From: an uncultured Prochlorococcus sp.
GTDB lineage: Bacteria; Cyanobacteriota; Cyanobacteriia; PCC-6307; Cyanobiaceae
Assembly: GCA_902634515.1 (NCBI GenBank)
Contig: CACPKH010000006.1
Location: 1 to 64,000, forward strand
Direction: 5' to 3'
DNA length: 64,000 nucleotides
Shown here: positions 8,789-19,173 of the stretch, one piece after another
How the letters are laid out: every line of letters starts with the position of its first letter
How positions within the stretch are numbered: the first letter of the stretch is position 1
The notes under the pieces: model-generated
Told to the model about the DNA's origin: nothing
Database searches by the model: none
Seen by the model: the letters and a program-made list of their open reading frames with translations, nothing else
Program-made: the position numbers and the translations under genes

Positions 8789-9913
8789 TTAATTGTCAGT
8801 CTCTTTTCTGATATTTCTAAGCCTTAGGAATTCTGGGATGCTTGCTCCAGCTTCTTTATTCCCTTTTTGGCGGTACATGGCTTGTTGGGATAATTTAATA
8901 TTAGATTTTTGATTATTATAGGGTTGGACACCATTGAAGCCTGTTGCAATAACTGTGACTTGAACCTCTCCTTCTAGTTCTTCATCAATTACTGCTCCAA
9001 CAATAATATTTGCTTCTGGGTCTACAACCTCTGAGATCACTTCTGATGCAGAAGTCATGTCTTCTAGAGTCATATCTTTCCCTCCGGTAATATTTAATAC
9101 GCATCCTTTGGCACCATCTATTCGACTTGCTTCTAACAAAGGACTATTAATGGCAGCTTGAGCAGCTTCAACAGCTCTTGAACGTCCAGATCCTAAGCCA
9201 ATGCCCAATAAAGATGTTCCTGCTTCTGTCATCACTGAGCGAACATCTGCAAAGTCAACATTTACTAATCCCGGACATGTGATTATGTCACTAATCCCTT
9301 TAACGCCCATCCTCAAAATATCATCAGCATTCCTAAAAGCTTCTTGAAGAGGTGCTCCTGAATTTACGTCCTTAAGACGATCGTTAGGAATAACGATTAA
9401 TGTATCAACATTCTCAGCAAGTTTTTGTATACCCTCGTCAGCTTGTCTCATTCTACGTCTGCCTTCAAAGCTGAATGGCTTGGTAACTATTCCTACTGTT
9501 AGAGCTCCAGTCTCTTTCGCGACTTCTGCTACCACTGGCGCTGCTCCAGTTCCAGTTCCTCCACCCATCCCAGCTGCAATAAAGACTAAATCGGCTCCTT
9601 CTAGGGCTTGTTGAAGATCTGCTCTAGATTCTTCTGCAGCTTTTTGTCCAATACTTGGATTGCCTCCTGCTCCTAATCCTCTAGTTAAGGTTTGGCCAAG
9701 TTGAACCCTGTTTTTAGCAGAGGATTGCAGCAATGCTTGAGCATCCGTATTTAGGACTCTATAAGCAACTCCTCGAAGGTCGCTAATAATCATTCGGTTT
9801 ACAGCATTGCTGCCTCCACCTCCTACTCCAATTACTTCAATTCGAGCCGTTTGACTTGGTTGAATTTCTTCGGCTCGATTAGAGCTCACGTTGTTTCCCA
9901 TGCCTATAACCAT
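8789..9913 (-). CDS. ftsZ: Cell division GTPase FtsZ
   Basis: The bacterial tubulin homologue that forms the division ring at midcell. The 374 residues contain the nucleotide-binding [13 protein letters not shown] (about 29-41), the tubulin signature [10 protein letters not shown] (about 117-126), [12 protein letters not shown] and the T7-loop [11 protein letters not shown]. The C-terminal tail carries the conserved partner-binding peptide (IPEFLRLRN). Translation may start at 9913 or at the second Met, at 9901. The upstream 179 bases hold no gene and presumably carry the promoter. ZipN/Ftn2, the cyanobacterial FtsZ tether, is encoded at 33.4 kb. In Prochlorococcus, FtsZ level follows the cell cycle. 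Confidence 0.98.
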
Positions 9914-10092
9914 CTGTAGGATTTAAACGTTGAATTTTTGTGCATTATGAACTAGGAATTGAGTTCTGTAGGCTTTTTCAAAAAAATCTAGTTATCTATA
10001 CATGTTAAATCAGAATTTACTGACTTTTGGTATTTGAAGCTACTTGACTATGTGATTCGTTGTGATTTTTTTTTCATAGAAGATAGTGCGCC

Positions 10093-10848
10093 TCACTTTG
10101 TAAGCAGTTTTGGCCTTGTGGGATCTTTGATATCAATAGTTATTTCCTTGCTATTTTTGATTTCTTCTGGCAAAGAATCTATTAAATAAGGCAAGAGATT
10201 TATTTGCTCCTTTAATAGGTATTGATTGGAACCTAAATGAATTAGTTTGAAATCTTTAGTCGAGAGACTGATCTCTCCATTAGGGCTAATAATTATTTCT
10301 TGAAGAGGACTTCCTAGGGTATACCTTTCACGGAAGATATGAGCGATGCTTTTTTGATGACTTTCAACCCATCCATCAATAATTACTGCTTTATCTTTTT
10401 TGAAATTGATATTATTCGATGCAAAGCTAGGTATCCAATAACCATCATAATCAATCATTCCCTTTTCCTTGCGCCCAAATGAATTTCTTGTTGCATAAGC
10501 TACTGGAATCCTCTCAAGAATCTCTATATGGATTCCTGGAGGAAGAATGCTTCTATTTATCTTTACTGCTTTAATTGGTAGATCTTGTAGTAAAACTGAT
10601 TCAAAATACTTTGGATTAATAGTTATTAAAGGTAACTCTATATCTATACTATTGAGGATTTTATCTTTACTTATATAATCATTTCCAGAGATAAGGATCA
10701 TTTGTTGATTTACTTTTTCCCATCCATTTTTAATTAATAATATACTTATTATTCCGCCTAAAGATAGGTATATAAATAACCTCCAGCAATTAATTAAATT
10801 AGATTGAATAGTCCTATGATTTGCATTCTTTATTTCAGAAGATTTCAC
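10093..10848 (-). CDS. ftsQ: Cell division protein FtsQ (POTRA domain)
   Basis: A bitopic divisome protein with a short cytoplasmic N-terminus, one membrane helix (LFIYLSLGGIISILLI), then a POTRA-type domain (ISGNDYISKDKIL onward) and the FtsQ beta domain (ILERIPVAYATRN). I choose the GTG at 10848, because it overlaps the stop of the upstream gene in a GTGA junction and gives 251 residues. An ATG at 10887 or 10959 would add 13 or 37 residues that overlap the upstream gene. FtsQ links the early Z-ring to late wall-synthesis proteins. It precedes ftsZ on the same strand, in the usual division-cluster order. Confidence 0.87.
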   Translation of the reverse strand: MKSSEIKNANHRTIQSNLINCWRLFIYLSLGGIISILLIKNGWEKVNQQMILISGNDYISKDKILNSIDIELPLITINPKYFESVLLQDLPIKAVKINRSILPPGIHIEILERIPVAYATRNSFGRKEKGMIDYDGYWIPSFASNNINFKKDKAVIIDGWVESHQKSIAHIFRERYTLGSPLQEIIISPNGEISLSTKDFKLIHLGSNQYLLKEQINLLPYLIDSLPEEIKNSKEITIDIKDPTRPKLLTK

Positions 10849-13817: not shown

Positions 13818-13922
13818 GTTTTATTTCATCCTTAAAGGGAACTTAAAAATTTCAAAGATGTTTAGTATCAAAGAAACTTTTGATTTTGGAAAAGGTTTTA
13901 AATTCATAAAATCTTTAATAAG

Positions 13923-13996
13923 GGCGAGCGAGGGGATTCGAACCCCCGAATAGCGGCGCCACAAGCCGCTGCCTTAACCACTTGGCGACGCCCGCC
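13923..13996 (-). tRNA. tRNA-His (GTG)
   Basis: On the minus strand the sequence folds as a cloverleaf. The acceptor arm is GCGGGCG with CGCTCGC, the anticodon arm is GCGGC with GCCGC around TTGTGGC, and the T arm GGGGG/CCCCT surrounds TTCGAAT. The anticodon is GTG (His). An encoded extra G at 13996 faces a discriminator C at 13923, the identity pair of histidine tRNAs. The 3' CCA is not encoded. Confidence 0.97.
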
Positions 13997-14038
13997 GCAC
14001 ATATATAAATTTACCAATTCGTCTTGAATTCAGTTGCA

Positions 14039-15337
14039 ATGATTCGCCCAAAAATGCAGGATTCAAAAAATTCTTCTCTTGAAGTCCTAGTACCAAGGGC
14101 TTTGGTAGGCTGCGGAGAAAGAATTGCAGGAGCAAATGTTACAGGAGAAGGACTGTGTTCTCTAAAAATTAATTTGAAAGATGGTTTTGTTGCGAATATT
14201 GAACCTATAGAAAACCCTAATAATCATTCTTTAGAGATTCTTTTGCCGAGATTAGTAGAGTCACATGCCCATATTGATAAGGCTTTTACTTGGAAAAATT
14301 TTCCAAATCTTGCGGGAACTTATGCAGGTGCATTGGAAGCAAACTTAAAAGAACTTCAGTTAAGGACAAAGGAATCAGTCCTCATGAGCGCAGAAAAAGC
14401 ATTGAGCTTGTCTGTACGTAATGGATTTAGGGCACTTAGAAGTCATGTGGACAGTTTGGGAACTTCAGCTGATAAAACTTGGCAAGTTTTATTAGGTTTG
14501 AAAGATGAATGGAAAGAATTAATTCATTTGGAGTTAGTCGCTTTGGTCCCTTTGAATTATTGGAATACTCAGGAAGGCAATTCGTTGGCAAGGAAAGTTG
14601 CTAGCGAAGGTGAATGTTTAGGAGGAGTATTAACTCCGCCTTTCAAAGAAGAAGAAGTCAGGAATGATTTACAACACTTGTGCAGACTTGCTAATGAATT
14701 GGGCTGTGGTTTAGATCTGCATATTGATGAAAGTTCTCAAGAACCTGGTGCTGGCTTAAAGCAATTACTTTATGTCCTTGATCTTATGCAATTGGATGTT
14801 CCGATAACTTGTAGCCACTTAAGTAGTTTGGGGCTTTTAAAACCAAGACTATTGGAATATTTTTCCAATAAATTGCTTCAGCATCAAATAAATGTGATTG
14901 CCCTTCCCTTAACTAATGCTTGGCTTCTTGGAAGGAGTAAAGGCTTTAGAACTATTAAGAGATCAATTGCGCCAATCTCTCAGTTGCAGAATGCAGGAGT
15001 AAATGTTGCGATTGGGGGAGATAATGTCCAAGACCCATGGTTCCCAGGAGGTGATTTTGATCCTCTAATGTTGATGGCTTTTTCAATGCCTATTACTCAG
15101 TTGGCTCCATGGAATCGATTTGGAATTGCACCTTTTACAACAGCACCTTCACGAATAATGGATCTTGAATGGGATGGGACTATTGATATTGGTTCTCCTG
15201 CTGATTTTATATTGTTAGAAGCGAATACTTGGTCAGAAGCATTGTTTCTTCAACCTAAAAGGAAGATAATTATTAAAGGTAAATTCTTAGAAGAAAATTT
15301 CTTCGAAGTTGATAAACGGAGAAACGATCTCTTGTAA
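14039..15337 (+). CDS. Amidohydrolase of the cytosine deaminase (CodA-like) family
   Basis: A metal-dependent hydrolase of about 432 residues. Metal-site segments are visible in order: SHAHIDKAF (matching the HxHLDT of CodA), LDLHIDES, TCSHLSSLG and the late GGDNVQDPWFPGGDFDPL, which mirrors the HDDVFDPWYP segment of E. coli CodA. This supports deamination of a cyclic C=N substrate such as cytosine, but replacement of flanking residues leaves the substrate open. I prefer the ATG at 14039; a TTG at 14024 is also in frame. The stop is directly followed by the ATG of the flavin oxidase, so the two are probably co-translated and may act in one pathway. Confidence 0.8.
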   Translation: MIRPKMQDSKNSSLEVLVPRALVGCGERIAGANVTGEGLCSLKINLKDGFVANIEPIENPNNHSLEILLPRLVESHAHIDKAFTWKNFPNLAGTYAGALEANLKELQLRTKESVLMSAEKALSLSVRNGFRALRSHVDSLGTSADKTWQVLLGLKDEWKELIHLELVALVPLNYWNTQEGNSLARKVASEGECLGGVLTPPFKEEEVRNDLQHLCRLANELGCGLDLHIDESSQEPGAGLKQLLYVLDLMQLDVPITCSHLSSLGLLKPRLLEYFSNKLLQHQINVIALPLTNAWLLGRSKGFRTIKRSIAPISQLQNAGVNVAIGGDNVQDPWFPGGDFDPLMLMAFSMPITQLAPWNRFGIAPFTTAPSRIMDLEWDGTIDIGSPADFILLEANTWSEALFLQPKRKIIIKGKFLEENFFEVDKRRNDLL

Positions 15338-16672
15338 ATGACTGAAGCAACTAATTACAATCAGTTCCTAAAAGATCTTTACTCTTTACAAGATTTAGAA
15401 ATCATTGAGCATCCTTCTGAAAAGAAAAGATTCTCAAGAGATTTCTTTAACTATTCACCTGTTCTTTTTGAAAAACTTCATCAATGTTGTGCAGATGTTG
15501 TGTTAAGACCAAAATCAATAAAAGCAATATCTTTGATAGCAGAAGCTTGTTATAAATATGAAATTCCTTTGACTTTAAGAGGCTCAGGAACGGGAAATTA
15601 TGGTCAATGTGTTCCTATTGAAGGAGGGGCCGTGATGCTTATGGACTCTTTTAAGAAAATAAGAGAATTTGACCCTTTAACAGGCCAAGTAACCGTTGAA
15701 CCTGGTTGTTTACTTGGAAATTTAGATAGCTACTTAGCAAATGAAGGTAGGCAGCTCAGATTAATTCCAAGCACCTGGAGGAATGCTTCTGTAGGTGGAT
15801 TTATCTCTGGCGGATCTGGCGGTATTGGGTCAGTAAGATGGGGCTTTTTGAGAGACCCTGGTCATTTAAAGGAGTTGGAAATCTTGACTGTTGAAGAAAA
15901 ACCAAGACTTCTCAAATTGGATGAGATCTCATCAGAACCCATAAATCATGCTTATGGAACAAATGGAATTATTACTGCTTTAACACTTGCGACAGCCCCT
16001 TTTGAGGAATGGCATGAAATTACTATAGATTGTGATGACTTTTCACAAGCCATTGCATTAATTAAGAGTTGTTCTTCAGCAGCAATCAATATTTATTTAT
16101 GTAGCCTATTGGAAAGAAGAATTATTGAAAATATTCCTAATTGGAGTGGTGATATTACTGGTAAACATAGAATCTTAATACTAGTCTCTGCTGATGGAAT
16201 TAATACACTTAGGAAAATTACTTCTAATTACAATGTAATATTTAATAACTTAGGAAAAGAGAAATCTTCTAATGGTCTTAGAGAGCTTACATGGAATCAT
16301 ACGACATTACATATGAGAGCAAAAGATTCAAATTGGACTTATCTTCAGATGTTATTGCCACAACCTGAATTAGATGCAATAGATTTTATAAATAACAAAT
16401 GGGGTGATAATATTCTTTGGCATTTAGAGTCTGTTAGACAGCAGGGTGAGCAACGAATAGCAGCTTTGCCTTTAGTAAGATGGAAAGATAAAGAAGCTTT
16501 AGATAATTTAATTTCTGATTTCAAAAAAATAGGTGCTTTTATTTTTAATCCGCATGTGATAACTGTTGAAGATGGAGGGCTTGGCACAGTTGATATTGAA
16601 CAAGTAAAAGCTAAAAGAAATTTTGATCCAAAAGGACTTCTAAACCCGAGAAAGCTTAAAGGGTGGATTTAA
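15338..16672 (+). CDS. FAD-linked oxidase, GlcD/PCMH type
   Basis: A 444-residue flavoprotein with the PCMH FAD-binding domain in the N-terminal half. The phosphate-binding TLRGSGTGNYGQCVP (about residues 82-95), VEPGCLLGNLD and the later GGFISGGSGGIGSVRWG are clear. The C-terminal part ends in FDPKGLLNPRK, the standard closing motif of the D-lactate/glycolate oxidase (GlcD) family. The His/Cys of covalent FAD attachment are not evident. The substrate is unknown. It begins at the base after the amidohydrolase stop, so the two form a tight pair. Its end overlaps convergent folC by four bases. Confidence 0.85.
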   Translation: MTEATNYNQFLKDLYSLQDLEIIEHPSEKKRFSRDFFNYSPVLFEKLHQCCADVVLRPKSIKAISLIAEACYKYEIPLTLRGSGTGNYGQCVPIEGGAVMLMDSFKKIREFDPLTGQVTVEPGCLLGNLDSYLANEGRQLRLIPSTWRNASVGGFISGGSGGIGSVRWGFLRDPGHLKELEILTVEEKPRLLKLDEISSEPINHAYGTNGIITALTLATAPFEEWHEITIDCDDFSQAIALIKSCSSAAINIYLCSLLERRIIENIPNWSGDITGKHRILILVSADGINTLRKITSNYNVIFNNLGKEKSSNGLRELTWNHTTLHMRAKDSNWTYLQMLLPQPELDAIDFINNKWGDNILWHLESVRQQGEQRIAALPLVRWKDKEALDNLISDFKKIGAFIFNPHVITVEDGGLGTVDIEQVKAKRNFDPKGLLNPRKLKGWI

Positions 16673-17901
16673 TCAAATTCATTAGACATAAAATTTTCAA
16701 ATAAAAAAAGAGATCCTGCAATTATTGGGAAGGGTTTTGGCCATTCCCCTCTTTTAATAAATCTTTCCAGGATTTCTTCTACATTAGAGATTTGATGTAA
16801 TTGATTAGATAGATCAGGACAGCTTTTTGAAAGTTCACTTGCCAACCAAGAATTTTGATTTGGGACAGGAATGATCCATGCATGATCGTTCTTCTTAACA
16901 AGCAACCTAATTATTTCAGGCCCTTTTTTGTGAGATTGAATTCCAAGAATCCAATGCACTCCTTTTTCATTCTCTTTCCACAAAAGTCTTTCTTTTGCCA
17001 ATTCACTTGCTGCATGAGGGTTATGAGCCCCATCCAAAAGTAATGGCTTCCCTTTCCAATATATTCTTTGTAGTCTTGCTGGCCATTTTGCATTTTTTAA
17101 TCCATTTTTAATCTGGCTGGTATTAAGCTCCCAACCAAGATTCTTTAATTCTTGAATAATTCCTTTTGCTACTGCTGCATTTTTTCTTTGAACTTCTCCT
17201 GGGATTCCTAATTCCCAAGACTTTGGTAAAGGTTTTACCCATTTAAGAACCGCTTTTTTTTTAAAAGCTATTTCTTCAAGAATTCTTGAAACTTTTTCAT
17301 TTTGATTTGAACTTATCACTGTACTTCCAGTTGTAATAACAGCAGCTTTTTCATTCGTTATTGCAACTATATTGTCGCCTAGATATTCACAATGATCTAA
17401 TCCAATACTTCCTATTGCAATTAAAGGCCTTTTTGGGTGAGAAGTTGTAGCATCTAACCTGCCTCCCAATCCTGCTTCTAATATTATTAACTCTACATTT
17501 TTGATTGAAAAATAGTCAAGTGCACATGTTATTACAAGCTCAAACTCCGATAAATCTTGCGACAGGTTCTGAACTTTTAAAATGTGATTTGTAAATTCAT
17601 TATTAGAAATATTCTTACCATTTACACGAATTCTTTCATTCCAATTAACAAGATGTGGGGAAGTTGTTGCTCCTACATTTATCCCAGCTTCAATCAGACA
17701 GGACTCTAAGAATCGTGCTATAGAACCTTTCCCATTTGTTCCCACTACTTGAATTGCTGGTATTTCTTTGCAAGGGTTATTTATAAGATCTAATACATTA
17801 CTTATTCTTTCTAAATTAAGATTAGTACCCATACTATCTTTTGGAGACAGCTGTAAGAAATTATTTGAATTAGTAAATTCTAGTAATTTTTTATCTTTCA
17901 A
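16669..17901 (-). CDS. folC: Folylpolyglutamate synthase / dihydrofolate synthase
   Basis: A Mur-ligase relative of 410 residues that adds glutamate to dihydropteroate and to folates, using ATP. The ATP loop is VVGTNGKGSIARFLE (about residues 53-67). TSPHLVNWNERIRVNG, LEAGLGGRLDATT, IGLDHCEYLG and LLLDGAHNPHAA follow in family order. It directly follows argD on the same strand with no gap between argD's stop at 17902 and the folC start codon at 17901. The end overlaps the opposing flavin-oxidase gene by four bases. Confidence 0.95.
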   Translation of the reverse strand: MKDKKLLEFTNSNNFLQLSPKDSMGTNLNLERISNVLDLINNPCKEIPAIQVVGTNGKGSIARFLESCLIEAGINVGATTSPHLVNWNERIRVNGKNISNNEFTNHILKVQNLSQDLSEFELVITCALDYFSIKNVELIILEAGLGGRLDATTSHPKRPLIAIGSIGLDHCEYLGDNIVAITNEKAAVITTGSTVISSNQNEKVSRILEEIAFKKKAVLKWVKPLPKSWELGIPGEVQRKNAAVAKGIIQELKNLGWELNTSQIKNGLKNAKWPARLQRIYWKGKPLLLDGAHNPHAASELAKERLLWKENEKGVHWILGIQSHKKGPEIIRLLVKKNDHAWIIPVPNQNSWLASELSKSCPDLSNQLHQISNVEEILERFIKRGEWPKPFPIIAGSLFLFENFMSNEFD

Positions 17902-19083
17902 TTACAATATTCTTTCCAAAGTCACTCTAAGCTTTTTTATTAAAGTATTTATCTGCCTTTCATTAATTATTAATGGAGGTACCATCCTAATTACTTTTTC
18001 TCCTGCTGGAACAATAAGAAGGCCTTCATTTATAGCTTGATTAACTACTATTTGAGACTTTAATGTCGACCTCTCTTTGATAACTAGGCCTTGTATAAGG
18101 CCAAGACCCCTTATCTCTTTAAGATGTTCTGGGAAAAGTTTAATTAATTTTAATAGTTCATGCTCTAATTGTTTCCCTCTTTCTTTTGCGTTTTTAACTA
18201 AATTACGTCTTTCAATTTCTTTTGCGACTGTTATGCCAGCCTTGCAGGCAAAAGGATTACCGCCAAATGTGCTTGCATGATCACCTTTCTGAAATATGTT
18301 TGCTGATTCTTTAACAAGTAATGCGCCAATTGCATGACCTCCTCCCAAACCTTTTGCAATAGTAAAAACGTCAGGTTCAATATTTAAATATTCATATCCC
18401 CACAAATTACCAGTTCTTCCCATTCCTGTTTGGACTTCATCAAAAATTAAAAGAATATTATTTTGAGTACAAATATCTCTTAAATACTTAAAGAATATTT
18501 TTTCTCCTGGATAGATACCACCTTCGCCTTGTAATGGTTCTATTAAGACTGCAGCAATCCTAGGGCCATTTATTTCAATTAAATTATGCAATTCTTTAAA
18601 TGAACTTTCATTATTAAATTCAAAAAATTCAAAACCCTCTATAAGAGGTTCAAATCCTTTTTGATATTTTGGCTGACCAGTAGCACTTAATGCAGCAAGA
18701 GTTCTGCCATGAAAACTTGATTTAGCACAGAGGATAACAGGACGTTCAATATTTCTTTTAATATGAGCATATTTTCTGGCTAATTTGATAGCAGCTTCGT
18801 TAGCTTCAGCACCACTATTACAAAAGAAAACCTTGCTTGCGCAGCTTTTTTTTACTAACCATTGAGCCAAATCTTCTTGTTCTGGTATCTCATAAAGATT
18901 GGAAACATGTTGAATTTTTTGCAATTGGCTTGATAAAGCCTTCCTTAAGCTTCTATCGCTATGTCCAAGACTACAAGTTGCTATTCCCGCTACTGCATCA
19001 AGATATTTTTTGCCTTTTTCGTCCCATACCCAAACTCCTTTCCCTTGAATTAACTTTAAGGGAATTCTTTGATATGTATCCAT
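17902..19083 (-). CDS. argD: Acetylornithine aminotransferase
   Basis: A PLP-dependent class III aminotransferase of arginine synthesis; it converts N-acetylglutamate semialdehyde to N-acetylornithine. Marks are NSGAEANEAAIKLARKY, the PLP-site LLIFDEVQTGMGRTG, the Schiff-base lysine in FTIAKGLGGGHAIGA and TFGGNPFACKAG. The start is ATG at 19083. An apparent open frame extends upstream, but it is the translated tRNA-Leu gene, so it is not coding. It is followed without a gap by folC. Confidence 0.95.
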   Translation of the reverse strand: MDTYQRIPLKLIQGKGVWVWDEKGKKYLDAVAGIATCSLGHSDRSLRKALSSQLQKIQHVSNLYEIPEQEDLAQWLVKKSCASKVFFCNSGAEANEAAIKLARKYAHIKRNIERPVILCAKSSFHGRTLAALSATGQPKYQKGFEPLIEGFEFFEFNNESSFKELHNLIEINGPRIAAVLIEPLQGEGGIYPGEKIFFKYLRDICTQNNILLIFDEVQTGMGRTGNLWGYEYLNIEPDVFTIAKGLGGGHAIGALLVKESANIFQKGDHASTFGGNPFACKAGITVAKEIERRNLVKNAKERGKQLEHELLKLIKLFPEHLKEIRGLGLIQGLVIKERSTLKSQIVVNQAINEGLLIVPAGEKVIRMVPPLIINERQINTLIKKLRVTLERIL

Positions 19084-19091
19084 TAAAGAAA

Positions 19092-19173
19092 TGGGAGCGG
19101 TCGGACTCGAACCGACAAACCCGGAGGTGCCGCATTTTGAGTGCGGTGCGTCTACCAATTCCACCACGCTCCC
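19092..19173 (-). tRNA. tRNA-Leu (CAA)
   Basis: The minus strand gives acceptor GGGAGCG with CGCTCCC, anticodon arm CCGCA/TGCGG around CTCAAAA, a long variable arm as expected of leucine tRNAs, and T-loop TTCGAGT. The anticodon is CAA and the discriminator is A. It ends eight bases before the argD start codon on the same strand, so it is probably processed from a joint transcript. Confidence 0.96.

Follow-up and report, generated by a model that had tools for sequence, protein, structure and literature searches.

Several described systems resemble, in one part or another, a pair of adjoining genes, here called A and B, in DNA of an uncultured Prochlorococcus sp. The pair occupies positions 14,039 to 16,672 of the window, that is, of the whole stretch of 64,000 nucleotides that was analysed. 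Arad3529, a pterin deaminase, is reportedly fast, and best, on 6-formylpterin and pterin-6-carboxylate, and its authors are said to have proposed an undescribed pterin-degradation pathway. Both compounds are photoproducts of folate. The Rut pathway of uracil catabolism employs a flavin oxygenase, a RidA-type protein, an amide hydrolase, a flavin reductase and a transporter. Entry 6V42 of the Protein Data Bank (PDB) bears the title 'Crystal structure of the flavin oxygenase with cofactor bound involved in folate catabolism'. The PDA of Variovorax sp. F1 is a C-N hydrolase characterised as a folate and pteroate deaminase, and conserved 'endoribonuclease' genes lie downstream of it (PMC9513972). 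Read as an old annotation name, 'endoribonuclease' plausibly stands here for RidA.

A and B constitute a real, conserved and functionally coupled pair. The pairing and the class of chemistry, deamination and oxidation, are well supported, and we infer that the substrate is a pterin. With a probability of about one half, the two enzymes act one after the other in a short catabolic step whose substrate is an oxidised pterin derived from folate or cyanopterin. No description of the pair or of its pathway was found in the open-licence literature, a search outside which most subscription papers fall.

The two proteins and their families

The pair and its junction are as follows.

14039..15337, forward strand: gene A, an amidohydrolase of the cytosine-deaminase superfamily (432 amino acids), proposed to be a pterin-type deaminase; ATG start, TAA stop at 15335-15337
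15338..16672, forward strand: gene B, an FAD-dependent protein (444 amino acids) of the 6V42 'flavin oxygenase, folate catabolism' family; ATG start
15335..15340, forward strand: junction, where the TAA of A and the ATG of B are contiguous (0 bases between) and share one frame

The original prediction described the two genes as fused end to start. Its positions and the zero gap are right, but this is not a fusion, because the TAA separates the two open reading frames (ORFs) in spite of the common frame, resulting in two proteins. The abutment is consistent with a single putative transcript. Gene A has two alternative in-frame starts, a TTG at 14024, upstream, and an ATG at 14054.

B contains a single recognisable Pfam domain, the FAD domain PF01565 (FAD_binding_4, E 5.4e-26). 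Its best match among solved chains is 6v42_A (E 6.3e-84, 36% identity, full length), and the next is 7qh2_C (E 2.6e-18). The predicted structure of B, with a mean predicted local distance difference test score (pLDDT) of 78.7, can be superimposed onto 6v42 in both domains (VIA-align: Z 36.6, rmsd 2.7, 419 residues aligned), the next entry having a Z of 26.0. An alignment of 37 B proteins contains 66 near-invariant positions, of which the window's protein keeps 65, the exception being R438 in place of G. The family motifs are N87-Y88-G89-Q90, W319-N-H-T-T323 and T334-Y-x-Q337. B is like 6V42 and 6V43 in family, in full-length similarity and in these motifs, and the loci nearest 6V42 have the same type of upstream partner. 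It is a clear relative of the 6V42-type flavin oxygenases and may act as an oxygenase on a folate catabolite.

B had been called a GlcD-type FAD oxidase, which holds at the superfamily level, as glycolate oxidase GlcD has the PF01565 domain too. B is not GlcD, however: it scores 72 bits on TIGR00387 (glcD) against a cut-off of 567.9, and E. coli GlcD has none of the NYGQ, WNHTT and TYxQ motifs.

A belongs to the amidohydrolases (PF07969, E 1.5e-13). The closest solved fold to its model (pLDDT 89.6) is E. coli cytosine deaminase, CodA, with a Z of 41.6 and 23-24% identity. The metal site and the catalytic Glu are kept: the HxH motif (H76, H78), H228, E231, H260 and D328, counting M1 from base 14039. 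The residues of CodA that contact cytosine, Q156 and D314 in the literature numbering, are not. They were placed by motif in an alignment of E. coli CodA with 37 A proteins (the window's, 8 picocyanobacterial, 10 other cyanobacterial, 8 plasmid-borne and 10 of 80 alphaproteobacterial). In the window's A, D314 is replaced by N329 and Q156 by P; in 37/37 rows Q156 is P, S, G, T or R and D314 is N. The label 'CodA-like deaminase' of the original prediction is correct as to amidohydrolase class and closest fold, but misleading as a name.

Rhizobium A (699.5 bits) and the A of one other cyanobacterium (631.6) pass the PRK07583 'cytosine deaminase' model, NCBIfam NF005759. The proteins that pass it are encoded in the flavin-oxygenase cluster; its name looks doubtful for them, because they too are without the CodA contacts Q156 and D314. 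A plasmid search with the Pantoea deaminase gave no labelled pterin deaminase among the best 60 of 185 records. Carriage of the pair by phages was considered and rejected, as no phage record matched B and 7 matched A weakly, at 22-25% identity.

Distribution and genomic context of the pair

The Cyanobiaceae were sampled as 151 genomes (150 relatives at least 90% complete and the window's own genome, a 1.19 Mb incomplete assembly, 65.7% complete) and searched with the A and B alignments. B was found in 149 and A in 140; both genes were present in 140, B only in 9, A only in 0 and neither in 2. The two genes share a strand and a contig, A being the upstream one, in 135 of the 140, with 53-545 bases (median 122) between the matched stretches. 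The five unlinked cases (G010, G329, G344, G353, G374) all belong to genus g9. In a smaller sample of relatives, A is present in 30 of 36 family members and linked to B by coordinates in 29 of these 30, again excepting G010. The six without A are G001 (70% complete), G016, G019, G025, G033 and G034 (53% complete), and of these G025, G033 and G034 have B. A class-wide sample gave a linked pair in all 44 Cyanobiaceae listed, but the 151-genome sample is the better count, because that listing leaves out 43 unmatched genomes. In the family B sometimes stands alone but A never does, which would fit A as a feeder step to B.

Among 246 cyanobacterial genomes outside the Cyanobiaceae, 176 have both genes, 7 have A only, 7 have B only and 56 have neither. 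The odds ratio is 201, not corrected for shared ancestry, at thresholds of E 1e-25 for A, whose matches may include paralogues, and 1e-40 for B. The best A and B lie at most 3 kb apart in 14 of 64 comparable genomes, and not in the other 50. The original prediction took unlinked genes in relatives as a sign against a common route. Such separation is rare in Cyanobiaceae; it is frequent in the other cyanobacteria, but presence is still correlated there.

Two of these non-picocyanobacterial loci (L155, L156) have the order substrate-binding protein (SBP), ATPase, permease, A, B, with 46-55% identity to the Rhizobium proteins, a form that bridges two phyla. In two others (L152, L153) a formamidase/acetamidase gene adjoins A, and in a further one (L168) an isochorismatase-type amidase lies between A and B, hinting at later steps of the pathway. 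In view of these five loci, the pair in picocyanobacteria appears to be what is left of a catabolic cluster that heterotrophs also have.

That cluster is best seen in proteobacteria of soil and sea, rhizobia and roseobacters among them. The B alignment was also run against bacterial genomes; the 80 loci nearest 6V42 among the matches listed were all alphaproteobacterial by record title. A is directly upstream of B in 80/80. The same loci contain genes for an NAD(P)H oxidoreductase (NADox) in 78, a permease in 74, an ATPase in 72, an SBP in 72, RidA in 71 and a creatininase in 64, several of them having short flanks. Conservation of the A-B order in two phyla excludes chance. The original prediction of one short route of deamination and oxidation is supported by this linkage, together with that in 135 of 140 Cyanobiaceae, and by the co-occurrence of the genes.

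Nine plasmid clusters around B (Rhizobium, Palleronia, Leisingera, Pseudosulfitobacter, Klebsiella, Pantoea, Agrobacterium, Ruegeria and Pseudooceanicola) all contain RidA, a creatininase-family protein and the SBP of an ATP-binding cassette (ABC) transporter. A is directly upstream of B in six of them and elsewhere in the cluster in two; the Agrobacterium cluster (L068) has no A. In the latter, the B-family gene at 8920-10284 stands with creatininase, RidA and ABC genes, with no amidohydrolase in the stretch shown and with an isopenicillin-N-synthase-type oxygenase after the transporter; in that plasmid the substrate of B may be a related one. In clusters of Roseateles and Nitratireductor, found by a search with A, A adjoins B. 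On a Pseudomonas sp. ADPe plasmid, a relative of A (L173, 9133-10272), at 43.5% to the deaminase of Pantoea, is found next to the cyanuric acid genes atzD, atzG and atzE, together with a BMP-type ABC transporter.

The redox partner varies. It is a flavodoxin-fold NAD(P)H oxidoreductase in Rhizobium and others, a PDR/VanB reductase with a ferredoxin domain in Klebsiella and Pantoea, and a 2Fe-2S protein in Leisingera, Roseateles and Nitratireductor; the clusters of Pseudosulfitobacter, Agrobacterium and Ruegeria have no annotated redox partner. This variety suggests that B needs reducing power. The heterotrophic cluster resembles the Rut system in its flavin oxygenase, RidA-type protein, amide hydrolase, reductase and transporter. 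The likeness is one of logic only, because the fold of the Rut oxygenase differs from the FAD fold of B, which is of the D-lactate dehydrogenase/VAO kind, and the A-B clusters have a deaminase in addition.

Whereas the 6V42 relatives lie mostly in a cluster with importer, RidA, creatininase and reductase, the picocyanobacterial B is accompanied by A alone. Beside the pair in picocyanobacteria we recognised no transporter gene and none of the other Rut-like components (RidA, amide hydrolase, flavin reductase). An NMT1-type SBP is absent from 8 of 11 Cyanobiaceae genomes searched (G005, G012, G018, G032, G075, G127, G203, G258) and encoded away from the pair in the other three (G035, G024, G011). 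RidA follows the amidohydrolase in the Klebsiella and Pantoea clusters, as the 'endoribonuclease' (possibly RidA) genes follow the Variovorax PDA, but three RidA proteins gave no match beside the pair in the picocyanobacterial regions fetched. One or two RidA genes do occur elsewhere in each of the 11 Cyanobiaceae. Creatininase-family and RidA genes were present in 14/14 genomes searched, by coordinates none of them near the pair in the 11 Cyanobiaceae; in G060 a creatininase gene is about 8 kb from B. Judged from these genes, downstream steps in picocyanobacteria are possible.

The unit is limited on both sides by genes that are context and not working parts of it.

13922..13995, reverse strand: tRNA-His (gtg), divergent from A, the upstream limit
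16669..17901, reverse strand: FolC-type ORF, convergent with B with a 4-base overlap, the downstream limit

We take the latter ORF to be of the FolC type by recognition; its Pfam scan gave a weak Mur_ligase_C match, below the cut-off. Beyond it, an aminotransferase gene (17902-19167, reverse strand) was given a mechanical start within tRNA-Leu (19092-19173, reverse strand). Its true start is probably a later Met (MDTYQRI), because the first residues of the ORF are translated tRNA-Leu sequence.

Substrate and function

In the proposed step, A would remove the ring amino group hydrolytically, giving a lumazine-type product and ammonia, and B would use its FAD to oxidise or oxygenate this product so that the ring can open. 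In heterotrophs the pair would be fed by an NMT1-type ABC importer and would work with RidA, creatininase-family and other amide-hydrolase genes, often with a dedicated reductase; in picocyanobacteria the electrons for B could come from photosynthetic ferredoxin. Since picocyanobacteria keep the core pair alone, the substrate is probably made inside the cell. The role that we infer, as we do the order of reactions and the electron donor, would be the clean-up of photosensitising oxidised pterins.

A pterin is proposed on three grounds: the title of 6V42, the Variovorax PDA with its downstream 'endoribonuclease' genes, and the photochemistry of oxidised pterins together with the tetrahydropterin of cyanobacteria. 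Oxidised pterins, which form from folates in light, sensitise singlet oxygen, and tetrahydropterin is plentiful in cyanobacteria (PMC9737128). That A deaminates pterins would follow from this line of argument. A wider proposal is a near-core pterin clean-up of oxygenic phototrophs, in which light-formed photosensitising pterins from folate or cyanopterin would be destroyed, ferredoxin and not a dedicated reductase would be the donor, and a picocyanobacterial deaminase of separate origin would be tuned to its own pterin. This is speculative and rather unlikely.

Several observations weigh against the assignment to pterins. The pocket of the picocyanobacterial A differs, which makes a pterin uncertain as its substrate: in 9/9 rows CodA column 283 has L where the other A proteins have Q, and column 319 has W where they have F, and the pocket is unlike the rhizobial type at columns 81, 283, 316 and 319. 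The window's A reaches 248.9 bits on PRK07583 and does not pass its cut-off of 403. In the A tree, which contains long branches (CodA 2.78), a single cyanobacterial clade is rejected (p-AU 0.011), and the A of picocyanobacteria may differ in origin or have shifted to another substrate. Such a clade is not rejected for B, in whose tree 19/19 cyanobacterial rows are grouped by a branch, though its support (79/91) is not conclusive. The presumed folate link of B comes from a PDB title, and no paper reporting the reaction of 6V42 or B was found in the open-licence literature. The pterin deaminases Arad3529 and Variovorax PDA are likened to A by description, as amidohydrolases that act on an amino-substituted ring, and not by sequence. 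Furthermore, genus g9 has the pair unlinked in all 5 genomes that hold both genes. B stands without A in 9 of the 151 Cyanobiaceae (G025, G033, G320, G334, G339, G348, G360, G367 and G387, where B is cut by a contig end). Three genera lack A in every sampled member and keep B: g24 (G025, with locus L169, G334 and G348), g161 (G320, G339) and g32 (G033). These genomes and the Agrobacterium plasmid indicate that B can serve without A. Both genes are missing in G019 and G395 of the large sample and in G016 of the smaller one, so the pair is not indispensable.

The same logic of deamination and oxidation might serve another nitrogen heterocycle, such as a purine- or pyrimidine-like compound, a breakdown product of flavin or thiamin, or a cyanobacterial metabolite. 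Assignments of NMT1-type binding proteins cover several flat heterocycles, and the altered picocyanobacterial pocket and the rejected clade of A point in the same direction. B, however, retains 65 of the 66 near-invariant residues of its family, which suggests that its substrate has not much changed, and another ring appears possible but somewhat doubtful. That deamination frees ammonia gives some appeal to the scavenging of an external heterocycle, by which, as the original prediction suggested, a nutrient-limited cell would gain nitrogen; ABC transporter genes do accompany the pair in proteobacterial clusters and in two other cyanobacteria. This suggestion fared poorly in the picocyanobacteria, with no transporter recognised in their cluster and the NMT1-type SBP missing from 8 of 11 genomes, and with the pair kept in 140 of 151 Cyanobiaceae. 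No NtcA box above shuffled sequence was found in 9/9 regions upstream of A (the window and 8 relatives). The best GTAN8TAC match in the window has one mismatch and is equalled by 260 of 300 shuffles, and 209-300 of 300 were as good in the relatives. Nitrogen scavenging is therefore improbable.

Slightly less probable still is mere linkage, with A acting as a plain deaminase of cytosine, isocytosine or isoguanine and B as an oxidase in its own right. CodA is the closest fold, the picocyanobacterial A has a W in the column of CodA W319, and B persists without A in some of the family. Nevertheless, the cytosine contacts are replaced in all 37 rows, the window's A scores 101.8 bits on PRK09230 (CodA) against a cut-off of 483, and the gene is linked to B and co-occurs with it. 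The replaced contacts, the linkage and the co-occurrence uphold the view in the original prediction that this is not a standard pyrimidine-salvage layout.

Finally, B could be the missing dihydrofolate reductase (DHFR) of cyanobacteria. Prochlorococcus is reported to have no recognisable DHFR (PMC1971073). B belongs to a folate-linked flavoprotein family, 149 of 151 Cyanobiaceae have kept it, some of them without A, and the DHFR domain PF00186 is absent from 6/6 B-bearing members searched. Yet 8 of 11 B-lacking genomes searched (G016, G019, G051, G054, G057, G064, G069, G078) lack DHFR too, so B does not account for the gap, and a deaminase partner makes no sense for the reductase of an essential cofactor. 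We consider this explanation very improbable. In a search of eight Cyanobiaceae (G005, G012, G018, G032, G035, G024, G016, G019), PF00186 was missing from all, which fits that report.

Significance for the picocyanobacteria

Few phototrophs are more abundant than Prochlorococcus and marine Synechococcus, whose genomes are very small. A pair kept by 140 of 151 Cyanobiaceae, for which no assigned pathway was found, constitutes a gap in what is understood of their metabolism. Genera g24, g161 and g32, which have B without A, and g9, in which both genes are present but unlinked, are natural experiments on its function. If the assignment to pterins is true, the labels 'cytosine deaminase' and 'glycolate oxidase' would be replaced for such genes, and cyanobacteria would possess a route that destroys oxidised pterins, which sensitise singlet oxygen.

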